This document shows, in pieces, positions 1 to 34,362 of a stretch of 34,528 nucleotides of DNA; positions within the stretch are counted from its first letter, which is position 1; every line of letters begins with the position of its first letter. The stretch comes from Candidatus Bathyarchaeota archaeon (GTDB lineage: Archaea; Thermoproteota; Bathyarchaeia; Bathyarchaeales; DTEX01). The stretch spans positions 1 to 34,528 of the forward strand of contig QMXE01000005.1 of the NCBI GenBank assembly GCA_003661975.1. Direction: 5' to 3'. Below the pieces are notes generated by a model. It was given only the letters and a program-made list of their open reading frames with translations. It did not search any database and was not told the origin of the DNA. Position numbers and translations under genes: made by a program.

Positions 1-516
1 CCCGGGACTCATCTCTGTTACTCGAGTCAAATCATATATTATGTGATCTTTCGGGTTGATTTGAACGAAATAATCTATCTCATCAAACGTGATAAGTAAA
101 AACATGTTCTCCAATCTTAGATACTCGATCAACTGCTGAATCATCTCTTCTGGGCTTAGACTTCTTGTCGAGATTTTCGGAGTCAACTTTCTAATGAGAT
201 TTCGGAAGAGAACATACCGTGTAGTGCCGTCAACCTTACAATTCACATAAATATACCTTAACTTAACATTTTCCTTCTTGGCATACTCCATTATCTGCTC
301 ACCGAACCTTATAGCCGTGCATGTCTTTCCGGATCCAGTTGGACCTATCATTTGTATAAATCTTGGATAGGCACTTTTGACGTTTCTTATTATGGCACCA
401 TATATTGAGAAAAGCATGCGGAGCTGCTCCTCTCTATATGGAAGTTTTTTTGGAATGTAGTGCGGCGAGAGCTTATTTCTATCCTTAAATATTGGTCTAA
501 TTGACAACCGGATCAC
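1..516 (-). CDS. cdc6: Orc1/Cdc6-family AAA+ replication initiator (C-terminus cut off by window edge)
   Basis: Open minus-strand frame from GTG (516-514) running off the left edge, absent from the ORF track. My translation MIRLSIRPIFKDRNKLSPHYIPKKLPYREEQLRMLFSIYG...IQMIGPTGSGKTCTAIRFGEQ...LLITFDEIDYF has Walker A GPTGSGKT, Walker B ITFDE and the Orc1/Cdc6-like 'P..L..REEQ' N-terminus. Confidence 0.85.
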   Translation of the reverse strand, partial: MIRLSIRPIFKDRNKLSPHYIPKKLPYREEQLRMLFSIYGAIIRNVKSAYPRFIQMIGPTGSGKTCTAIRFGEQIMEYAKKENVKLRYIYVNCKVDGTTRYVLFRNLIRKLTPKISTRSLSPEEMIQQLIEYLRLENMFLLITFDEIDYFVQINPKDHIIYDLTRVTEMSPG

Positions 517-675: not shown

Positions 676-1967
676 TTGAGAAAGATTAGATACAGCGTGT
701 TCTTTATAATTGCTTTAATAAGTGCTTGTATTCTTGTCATTCGCAAATCTTAGTATTTCAGCTCAGAATGGAAATATCCATATCTACTATGGGCATATAC
801 CCTCAAGGATATTTGTTAATGAGTTTCATGAGGATAATGGAAGATGGGAGATCCTCAAAGATACAACCGCAGATCATGGAACAATGGGGATCATCGACAT
901 CACCGACTTCACAGATGTTAAGGCATATACGCTGCCTGACAAGAGGCTTGTTAAAGAGTCTAAGATTGGAAGATATGAGAAACTCCTCGTAGATTACCTA
1001 ACGGAACGCTCTTTAAGATATGCTTAACTAAGCCCATATCTGTAATGTTAATGGGTGGAAGACTATTAGGTAAGGGTCAGCTCCAGACGAGCACATTCCT
1101 TACAAGTGTTGACGGAAGCTACGTAAGAAAGGAGTTCATTTTCTTGCAGGTTGGGCACCCATACTTCTATCCGGCCTTATGGGCTGGATGGCATTATAGG
1201 CACTTTGGTTTCTCAACGAGAGTTATGGCCCTAGAGGATTCGCACATACGTTAAAGGATGAAGATGGAAGGGTAATCATGAAATTCGACCTTAAAGCGAA
1301 TGAGGAGAAAACACTTAACGTAACACATTTCAGGGTTTATCATCTCATCTCCACGTGGAACGTGATGGTTCATTCTATTCCAGCGGGGGATCCATCTTTT
1401 ACCCAGTCGTATTTCGAGGGATTTCTTGGAAAGGTATTCTATAGAGGCTCTAATGAGCGAGCCTACTGGAAAGACCCGGCATATGAGAATCGGACATTCA
1501 TACTGACAAGCATCGAAGACAATTACATACGCGTTATTGACGTGCATAATGGAAGACTCTAAGGATAGAGGATTATCAATTCTCGGATTAAGGGCTAATC
1601 AAATAGCAGCCATATACATTCCTTCAGGGGAGAGTTACATCTTTCCCTACAAGGATACCATAGTCACAATAGACGATATTAAAATGAGACTTCACGAAGA
1701 TGAACCTTATAGGCTGAGGGAGGGGGTTTATGTGACATCAACCACAGAAAACATATTAATCGAAGTGGTAAATATGCAGAGACATCAGGGCGTAGGCACA
1801 TTTGCGGCCTGTCTACCCTCGATCCAATCCCTAGATATTACAAAGGCTTAAAGATTAAACCTCCGCTACAAGTTGAGACACAATGGAGAATGCCTTCTTG
1901 GGCGTATTATGTCATTCTGATGGCATTGACTATCATTTTAGCCGTTGCATTGAAGATCAGAAGATAA
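676..1967 (+). pseudogene. Frameshifted gene for a secreted/membrane-anchored protein (N-terminal signal peptide, C-terminal TM helix plus KIRR tail)
   Basis: Consecutive open segments switch frame: frame 1 from TTG 676 (LRKIRYSVFFIIALISACILV), frame 2 722-1027, frame 1 1045-1254, frame 3 about 1225-1562, frame 1 1537-1851, frame 3 to stop 1967 (..PRYYKGLKIKPPLQVETQWRMPSWAYYVILMALTIILAVALKIRR*). Confidence 0.75.
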
Positions 1968-1991: not shown

Positions 1992-2732
1992 TTATGGTTC
2001 AAGCGGTTCTACATGCACTGCACGGGGAATCGTAAGCGTTTTAGGCCTTTTAATAGGCGCCGCCCATCTAACAGCATTCTCGATCACCAATAAGACCTTT
2101 TCATTGTGATAAATTGGATAGGTCTCATGTCCCGGTCTGAAATAGAAGATCTTCCCACGTCCACGATAAAAGCAACATCCGCTTCTGAAGACTTCTCCTC
2201 CCTTAAACCAGCTTATGAAAACCAGCTCGTCCGGATTTGGAATATCAAAGAATTCGCCGTACATTTCGGTCTTTTCGATCTCAAAGTAATCTCCAATCCC
2301 CTCAGCTATCGGATGTCCAGGTGAGACTACCCATAGGCGCTCCTTCTCTCCATCCTCCCTCCATCTGAGGCTACAACTCGTTCCCATCAATTTCCTAAAA
2401 ATCTTAGAGTAATGCGCCGAATGTAGCACTATAAGGCCCATACCATCGCACATAATCCTATTATATACCCTCTCTACCACTTCATCGCTTACCTTATCAT
2501 GAGCGGCATGTCCCCACCAAATCAGCACATCAGTATTTCTGAGAACTTCATCTGTTAAGCCATGCTGAGGCTCATCTAGAGTCGCCGTTTTCACTTCAAT
2601 ATTAGGCTTCTGACTCAAGTATTCAGCGATAGCTCCATGAATCCCCTTAGGATATATCGCTGCTACCCTTTCATCTTCTCTTTCATGAATAAATTCATTC
2701 CAAACCGTAACGCGAATCTTATCTCTGTTCAT
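1992..2732 (-). CDS. ThuA-like (trehalose utilization/glutamine amidotransferase-like) protein
   Basis: [35 protein letters not shown]...[23 protein letters not shown]...[22 protein letters not shown] is characteristic of the ThuA family. Confidence 0.85.
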
Positions 2733-2864
2733 GCCAATTCCCCAGATATCTAATTGATAGGACAGATAATATTTTTATGCCTAAATGTCTTTTCTCGTCT
2801 CTTAAAAACGGAAGATATAAATTTGATGATCATTTAAATTGGAGTGCTTCGAGGCGAAAGGATC

Positions 2865-3362
2865 ATGGCATATAAGTATCTGGCTGAGGCTTGGAAGAGG
2901 CCGGATGCATCATACATTAAAGAGTTAATGCAAAAAAGGGTGATTGAGTGGCGGAAACAGCCGGCGATAGTTAGGATTGATAAGCCAACAAGAATTGATA
3001 GGGCGAGGAGACTCGGATATAAAGATAAGCCCGGATACGTTGTTGTCAGGGTTAGGGTCAGAAGGGGAGGATTGAGTAAGCAGCGCCCAAGAGCGGGACG
3101 TCGACAGAAAAGAATGGGCGTGAAGAAATATAAACCCGCCAAGAGCCTCAGACTCATCGCTGAAGAAAGAGCCGCAAGGAAATATCCAAACCTTGAGGTT
3201 CTCAATTCCTATTGGGTCTGGGAGGATGGTCGATCAAAATGGTTTGAGGTCATACTCGTTGATAGAACATTACTGCCTGATCTTCGCCTCGGCAAAGGCA
3301 GAGGACGAGTATTCAGAGGACTAACAAGTGCCGGAAGGAAAGTCCGAGGGCTGATGGCTTAA
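2865..3362 (+). CDS. rpl15e: 50S ribosomal protein L15e
   Basis: [75 protein letters not shown]; start set to the ATG at 2865. Confidence 0.97.
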
Positions 3363-32033: not shown

Positions 32034-33092
32034 ATGAACAGCGTTGATGCACCGCAGATTACAGATGTATTTTTGCGTAAGCTCTATAGGCGGATGAAAC
32101 CGTCACTTTCATTTCAAGCAAAGACAAAGGAAGAATTCGAAGAATGGAAACGGAAACTGAAGAATAAGATCGTAGAGTTATTAGGAGAGTTTCCGGAACC
32201 CGCGCCATTAAATCCGCAGCTTCTCTCAACAGAAGAGACTGAAAAATATGTTAGGGAGAAGTGGCTGATACAGTCAGAGCAAGACTGTTACGTTCCCCTT
32301 TATCTTCTCATACCCAAAAATGTAGATGGGAAAAGACCTGCAATATTATGTGCCCATGGACATGGGCCTTATGGCAAGGATCCAGTGGCCGGAGTACATT
32401 TTAATGATCCAGAGAGAAAAGCGAATATCCTTAGACATAATTATAATTATGGAGAGCAGATGGCTGAGAGAGGCTTCGTTACGATAGTGCCCGACTGGAG
32501 GAGCTTTGGAGAGCGAATAGCATATCAAAATCCCTATCTGGGAAGAGATATATGCAATATTCATTTTATACAGCATTTAATTCTTGGTAGAACGCTTCTC
32601 GGTTCAAATATCTTTGATGGAATGCGCGTAATCGACTTTCTTTTAACAAGAGAGGAAGTCGACCCTGAGAGAATAGGATGTATGGGATTATCCTTTGGAG
32701 GCACAATGACAACGTATCTTGCATTGCTTGATGATAGAATAAAGGCCGCTGACATAATATGCTATGCAACTACAACTGAACATTATGCAATTTCAAGGCC
32801 AAACTTCTGCGGTTCCCAGCTAGTTCCATACTTATATAAATATGCGGATGTTCCCGATGTGATAGCGGCTATTGCCCCAAAGCCTCTCTTAATAGAAAGC
32901 GGAGCTTCAGATACATGCTTTTGGATCCACTCAGCAAAGAAGGCTCACGAGATAATTAAGAGAGCCTATGAAGTGAGTGGTCATCCGGAGAATCTCTGGA
33001 TCGAAGTTTTTCCAGGGGAACATAGCTTCTCGGGACGAATGGCATTCAAATTCTTTGAGAAGTTCCTATGCCAAGATAAGGGACGCGATTAA
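32034..33092 (+). CDS. Alpha/beta hydrolase (acetyl-xylan-esterase/dienelactone-hydrolase-like)
   Basis: RPAILCAHGHGPYGKDPVAG...GFVTIVPDWRSFGER...DPERIGCMGLSFGGTMTTYLALLDDRIKAA...APKPLLIESGASDTCF...EVFPGEHSF; nucleophile GLSFGG. Confidence 0.88.
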   Translation: MNSVDAPQITDVFLRKLYRRMKPSLSFQAKTKEEFEEWKRKLKNKIVELLGEFPEPAPLNPQLLSTEETEKYVREKWLIQSEQDCYVPLYLLIPKNVDGKRPAILCAHGHGPYGKDPVAGVHFNDPERKANILRHNYNYGEQMAERGFVTIVPDWRSFGERIAYQNPYLGRDICNIHFIQHLILGRTLLGSNIFDGMRVIDFLLTREEVDPERIGCMGLSFGGTMTTYLALLDDRIKAADIICYATTTEHYAISRPNFCGSQLVPYLYKYADVPDVIAAIAPKPLLIESGASDTCFWIHSAKKAHEIIKRAYEVSGHPENLWIEVFPGEHSFSGRMAFKFFEKFLCQDKGRD

Positions 33093-33222
33093 TCCATCAG
33101 CATATATGAATATAGATGTTCATGCATGCTATTATCAGCTCATTTATGCATTAAAAATTACATATAAATACTCCTTACAACCCAATATATTCCACCAAAA
33201 GCTATTGGGAAGCTGCTCTGAA

Positions 33223-34362
33223 ATGATGGGAAAGAAGCTAATAATGGTTCCCGGTCCCACGAATGTTCCAGACAGCGTTATGAGAGCGATGATTAAGCCT
33301 ATCATAAGTCATCGTAGTGAAGAGTTCAGGAGACTCTATGAGTCATTAACTGAGAATATGAGATATCTCTTTCAAACGGAAGGCGATGTTTTTGCCTTAA
33401 CCGTTTCAGGAACAGGTGGAGTAGACTGCATGATTTATAATACTATAAGTCCAGGAGATAAAGTCGTAATACCAGTCTTTGGACTCTTCAGCGAGAGGAT
33501 GAAGCAAGCGATAATTCGAAGAGGAGGGAAACCAATCGAGATACGGGCATCCTGGGGGAAATGTCCTACAGCGGAGCAAATAAGAGAGGCGATAGAAAGG
33601 GAGGGAAACATTAAGGCAATAGCAATAGTATATAATGAGACATCCACTGGAGTTACATTTCGCGATCTACCCCAGATTGGAAAGATCGCTCAAGAGAATG
33701 ATCTTCTCCTACTTGTAGATGCCGTTTCAATTTTGGGAGGAGATGAACTTCCAGTCGACAGGTGGAAAGTTGACATCTGCGTCACCGCAAGTCAGAAGTG
33801 CATTGCATGTCCACCTGGACTTGCACTCTTTTCAGTGAGCGAGAGAGCTTGGGAAATAATAGAAAAAACTCAAAGACCATTCTATTTCGACATGATCATG
33901 ATGCGCGAATTTGATGGGAAGAGCGAAACGCCGTTTACGCCTTCTATTCCACTCTTTTACGCTCTTGATGAAGCCTTAAAGATTATCCGAGAGGAGGGTT
34001 TAAGTAGGAGATTTACCCGCCACAAGATCTGCAGCGAAGCTTTCTATGACGCCGTCGAAACTCTCGGGTTAGAGCCTCTTCCGGAAAAAGCCGTTCGCTC
34101 CCAGACTGTTATCACCTTCAAAATACCTGAAGGAATCGATGGCGCTGCTATTCGTAGGATAATGGATGAGAAATATGGCGTTGTAATCGCTGGAGGAGCT
34201 GGAAAGCTTAAGGAGAGCACCCTTAGAATAGGATGCATGGGAATAATATCTGAAAAAGAAACTATGCTGACAATTTACGCTCTAGAGAATGCACTGCAAA
34301 GTTTAGGATACAAATTTGAATATGGCTCTGGAGTAGAAGCTGCTCGAATGAGGTTCCAGTAA
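33223..34362 (+). CDS. Class V PLP aminotransferase (alanine-glyoxylate/serine-pyruvate aminotransferase-like)
   Basis: MVPGPTNVPDSVMRAMIKPIISHRSEEFRRLYESL...VSGTGGVDCMIYNTISPGDKVVIPVFGLFSERM...LLVDAVSILGGDELPVDRWKVDICVTASQKCIACPPGL (SQK lysine). ORF opens earlier (32977) but homology begins at 33223/33226. Confidence 0.93.
   Translation: MMGKKLIMVPGPTNVPDSVMRAMIKPIISHRSEEFRRLYESLTENMRYLFQTEGDVFALTVSGTGGVDCMIYNTISPGDKVVIPVFGLFSERMKQAIIRRGGKPIEIRASWGKCPTAEQIREAIEREGNIKAIAIVYNETSTGVTFRDLPQIGKIAQENDLLLLVDAVSILGGDELPVDRWKVDICVTASQKCIACPPGLALFSVSERAWEIIEKTQRPFYFDMIMMREFDGKSETPFTPSIPLFYALDEALKIIREEGLSRRFTRHKICSEAFYDAVETLGLEPLPEKAVRSQTVITFKIPEGIDGAAIRRIMDEKYGVVIAGGAGKLKESTLRIGCMGIISEKETMLTIYALENALQSLGYKFEYGSGVEAARMRFQ

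Follow-up and report, generated by a model that had tools for sequence, protein, structure and literature searches.

Positions 676-1967 (+) of the window, i.e., the whole 34,528-nucleotide stretch of DNA analysed here, hold the coding sequence of one protein spread over different frames, and this locus is very probably a genuine pseudogene, witness to the decay of its family in the genome that carries it, that of an uncultured archaeon of the Candidatus Bathyarchaeota group. The region would represent a recently inactivated copy of an archaeal cell-surface protein gene that belongs to a multigene family. A profile search located seven family loci in this genome, and all six that can be assessed (6/6) are broken, at different columns of the family profile. 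As the family is intact in related genera, the lineage appears to be losing it as a whole.

The locus and its frame breaks

The window corresponds to contig C5 of a 1.78 Mb MAG made of 207 contigs and estimated to be 93% complete. Six open segments, read across three frames, follow each other within 676-1967 (+) and are listed here with the flanking genes.

1..516 (-): Cdc6-like AAA ATPase, truncated by the window edge (flank); Pfam AAA_22; syntenic in G001, G002, G005 and G006
676..738 (+): probable TTG start and N-terminal half of the signal peptide; open frame LRKIRYSVFFIIALISACILV, in a frame differing from that of the next segment; weak ungapped profile match, 8.9 bits
722..990 (+): remainder of the signal peptide, then repeat 1 (profile columns 19-111); frame-aware alignment; E 1e-6 to 6e-6 to intact relatives in single genomes
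991..1247 (+): last part of repeat 1 and beginning of repeat 2 (columns 112-187); break at 991; insertion of ~14 codons between ~1147 and ~1215; blastp E down to 1e-12
1248..1557 (+): repeat 2 and beginning of repeat 3 (columns 188-332); break at 1248; ~39 columns (289-327) missing at ~1544/1545; blastp
1558..1845 (+): last part of repeat 3, then repeat 4 (columns 333-447); break at 1558; columns 335-346 missing; blastp E 3e-20 to L018:3653-5116
1896..1967 (+): C-terminal TM helix, KIRR tail and stop, in another frame again; ungapped profile match of 13.8 bits, columns 459-477
1992..2732 (-): ThuA-domain gene, intact (flank); Pfam ThuA, 1-209/209; syntenic in 5/5 congeners
2844..3362 (+): ribosomal protein L15e gene, intact (flank; synteny anchor); Pfam Ribosomal_L15e

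A frame-aware dynamic-programming alignment of 600-2050 against a profile of 29 intact family members gave the window copy 202 bits over columns 19-447 of the 489-column profile, versus 13.7-16.3 bits when this DNA was base-shuffled (three times) and 15.1 bits for its reverse strand. Three intact G012 genes, used as a control, showed zero breaks under the same alignment. A sequence-only reading of this DNA had already joined the open segments of 676-1967 into one protein with a KIRR tail, and all of them were found where it had placed them, with TTG as the start at 676 and KIRR and a stop as the end at 1967. Breaks were located at ~991, ~1248 and ~1558 with no in-frame stop along the alignment path, and segments 722-1027, 979-1254, 1200-1562 and 1507-1851 each match, collinearly in blastp, the same intact proteins of 480-500 aa. 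Such intact homologues with a matching segment order, proposed earlier as a check, thus support the pseudogene reading.

Five frame switches had been located, out of at least five proposed, and the alignment confirms the three central ones. The outer two, at ~720-748 and ~1790-1848, were not picked by it; they are plausible but weaker, since the ungapped hydrophobic matches behind them score 8.9 bits (RYSVFFIIALISACILV) and 13.8 bits (SWAYYVILMALTIILAVAL), low values due to the segments being short and hydrophobic. The candidate signal peptide and C-terminal TM helix with basic tail of the window copy thus stand in the right order, but in other frames and with weak profile scores.

The absence of ~39 codons (columns 289-327) near 1545, a deletion whose exact edges are ambiguous, makes the damage more than a set of frameshifts. 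The window copy also lacks columns 245-250 and 335-346, whereas ~14 codons between ~1147 and ~1215 are without counterpart in the family profile. Thus, the description of the gene as fragmented but otherwise open is right for the frame breaks and understates the damage, and the full length of about 430 aa deduced from the segments has to be corrected, the missing columns placing the original intact form nearer 480-500 aa. Compared with the intact family, the window copy carries at least three frame breaks, several missing stretches, and altered conserved residues such as G161R and G224W. It retains 37 of the 47 conserved family residues (79%), on a par with its nearest intact paralogues (72-84%), so that the loss is recent relative to the divergence of the protein, in agreement with the earlier impression of recent damage. 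GC content by codon position did not clearly separate the pseudogene from intact genes.

The neighbouring genes look intact, as first noted: a Pfam domain was matched in 19 of the 20 window ORFs scanned, near full length for most of them, and one had no match. In the window ORF listed as 32977-34362, which encodes a class-V aminotransferase, the Pfam match starts only at residue 109; the listed start codon is probably too far upstream.

The intact family and its distribution

Intact members are proteins of 480-500 aa including a signal peptide, four beta-rich repeats, a C-terminal TM helix and a basic cytoplasmic tail, and they have in common the motifs YYG..P, NGT.FK, GKEF, ALED and GGF.G / GF.GK.F. 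The window copy displays the same segment order and conserved motifs as these Bathyarchaeota surface proteins (e.g., L018:5232-6677 and L033:3917-5440). Profile-profile comparison of blocks with hhalign related R1 to R2 (E 1.4e-10), R2 to R4 (E 7.6e-8) and R1 to R3 (E 2.9e-7), the remaining pairs being weak. An AlphaFold2 model of an intact relative, built from 12 sequences, displays an all-beta ectodomain followed by a terminal helix (mean pLDDT 73.9, pTM 0.75). As judged from the repeats and this model, the ectodomain is predicted to be built from four related units, each beta-sandwich-like and ~80-100 residues long. A Foldseek search of the model against the PDB returned no usable match (query TM 0.09-0.16, rmsd >13), and no function is claimed from the fold.

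According to the sequence-only reading, the ectodomain matched no recognised family. This holds for the window segments themselves, three of which gave no PF17517 match in Pfam, but a family of intact homologues does exist and borders on Pfam PF17517 (IgGFc_binding). The cut-off of this Pfam family (25.6 bits) is passed narrowly by two of 12 intact members (28.2 and 26.0 bits), and two more match below it; most members do not reach the cut-off, and the matched profile positions vary from one member to another. The vertebrate protein that gave PF17517 its name binds IgG-Fc or mucin-type partners, whereas IgG is not known from the surroundings of an environmental archaeon. Matches to WD40/beta-propeller families were far under the Pfam cut-offs or short and were rejected as a generic beta-repeat signal. 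An NCBIfam search gave nothing convincing for the family, a literature search on PF17517 and IgGFc-binding proteins in archaea found nothing relevant, and the family is essentially unnamed and undescribed.

At E <= 1e-5, the family is matched in 12 of the 257 genomes of the class. These are the window's own genome, ten genomes of the same taxonomic family (G007-G012, G015, G016, G018 and G019), and one genome of another family with a weak match; the named relatives sharing this protein family are Candidatus Bathyarchaeota MAGs. Other genera of this Bathyarchaeota family carry intact copies, often in tandem, with five copies inside one 16-kb stretch in G012 and tandem copies in G009 and G011. 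A MAG labelled uncultured Clostridia bacterium also has a contig with a full-length member (L035:329-1909), which may reflect either a transfer or a binning error. In G008 (contig C6), a family copy at L073:3282-4777 is divided between two ORFs, of 123 and 366 aa, in different frames. Close to it lie a 761-aa membrane protein, oligosaccharyltransferase-like by eye, and an ABC ATPase. With this split copy, decay may extend beyond the window's genome.

Decay across the genome and competing explanations

Frame-aware alignment of the other family loci in the same genome gave the following picture.

C27: two breaks
C40: starts at column 108; five breaks
C10: three breaks, a 75-column deletion and one stop; at contig end
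C140: columns 15-179 and ~383-485 kept, with unrelated DNA between; at contig end
C9: remnant, columns 364-485; two breaks and one stop
C16: only 66 codons at a contig edge, which cannot be judged; left out of the broken count

In a tree of the family, the own-genome copies join different G012 paralogues through branches of ~0.8-1.3, and the nodes concerned are moderately supported (0.83-0.97). Given these distinct positions and long branches, they would be paralogues of old and separate origin, each inactivated on its own. About 19 breaks were counted over all copies, with few stops in homologous sequence, which suggests an indel-rich decay. An intact copy could still lie in the unassembled part of this 93%-complete MAG. 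As the six assessable copies, all of them assembled, are broken independently, this lineage appears to have ceased to maintain the whole family by selection.

Pseudogenes as such are reported to be common in sediment MAGs, including those of Bathyarchaeia: PMC13288992 gives 125-527 per high-quality MAG across the studied populations and 1.28e-4 pseudogenes per base in one Bathyarchaeia MAG. A single surface-protein family dead in all its copies is not described in its passages on pseudogenes.

The history of the locus bears on whether an ancestral family is being lost or whether the copies were acquired by transfer from relatives, either already broken or broken after their arrival. The profile search found family copies in none of the five congeners (0/5), most of whose genomes are incomplete (66-95%). 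In G001, G002 and G005, the gene order is cdc6-like, an unrelated gene of 367-422 aa on the strand opposite to that of the pseudogene, thuA and L15e, whereas in the window the pseudogene takes the place of the 367-422 aa gene between cdc6-like and thuA. A search around the L15e locus of congeners revealed no remnant of the family, and the window showed no trace of their 367-422 aa gene. This gene is conserved in G005, G002 and G001 (L102:2882-4132, L100:1992-3260 and L098:2716-3819, respectively) and has no NCBIfam match. The empty congeners and their unrelated gene at this site would fit a transfer; however, deep divergence separates the copies from every known member, and, since they join several different old paralogue branches, several separate transfers would be needed. 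Acquisition by transfer is thus considered rather unlikely, the incompleteness of the congener genomes also weakening the argument from absence.

Loss of the family could also have been driven by selection rather than by neglect. All copies would then have been inactivated independently and recently because display of the protein had become harmful, for example as a virus receptor, a scenario to which we give a low probability.

It is very unlikely that the gene is intact and that the breaks are artefacts of the MAG consensus, although frame breaks far outnumber in-frame stops in homologous sequence and conserved residues are kept as well as in intact paralogues, both of which could be expected from errors. 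Indeed, base-calling errors do not produce the 39-column deletion of the window copy, the 75-column deletion of the C10 copy or the unrelated DNA within the C140 copy. Homopolymer-driven sequencing error is rejected, the longest run at 19 break sites averaging 3.0 versus 3.06 in the background. The neighbours of the pseudogene and other long paralogous surface genes of the same genome are open, including the long M28-FtsX and DUF6785 genes, and the five other assessable copies are broken elsewhere. Confusion during assembly is countered by the divergence between paralogues, ~1 substitution per site, which is too high for it. Local sequence error, left as an option by the sequence-only reading, is thus considered unlikely, and genuine decay is preferred.

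Finally, that the pieces are separate genes, or that programmed frameshifting or other recoding restores the product, is hardly credible despite several long, open segments (up to 120 aa) with well-kept conserved residues, because intact relatives carry all segments fused in one frame, break columns differ between copies, a shared slippery run was not found, and the ~39 deleted codons could not be supplied.

Possible function and meaning of the loss

With genuine decay as the preferred reading, ordinary translation of the window copy would yield no full-length, anchored product, given the frame breaks and the deletion. As for the intact members, they would bind or adhere at the cell surface and in some cases help to break down and take up extracellular protein, an assignment that we advance tentatively and with somewhat less than even confidence. 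It draws on the genomic context: the G012 array adjoins genes for an M28-peptidase/FtsX fusion and/or DUF6785/6784 proteins identified by Pfam, and at G015:C75, G016:C23, G011:C33 and G019:C12 the same neighbour types were recognised because they resemble the G012 proteins, the peptidase domains beside the G016 and G019 copies being identified by eye. Most intact copies do not adjoin peptidase/transporter genes, and M28-FtsX and DUF6785/6784 genes are also present in genomes without the family (G006 and G013).

M28 peptidase-FtsX permease fusions of ~1,500 aa recur in relatives, e.g., L018:8629-13332 (G012:C6) and L130:335-4741 (G000:C90), often beside DUF6785/6784 and a ~630 aa multi-TM membrane protein without Pfam match. 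Intact members might serve the M28-peptidase/FtsX and DUF6785/6784 membrane proteins by capturing protein or glycoprotein outside the cell. Loss of the whole peptidase/transporter gene set together with the family is ruled out by the open M28-FtsX and DUF6785 genes of this genome; the lineage would rather have dropped a capture accessory and retained the genes for the peptidase and the transporter-like proteins.

The single locus described here is an ordinary pseudogene. Less ordinary is the death, in this genome, of all the assessable members of one surface family, whereas this essentially undescribed family is expanded and intact in some other genera. It offers a natural case for asking what the role of such surface proteins is and why a lineage drops them.
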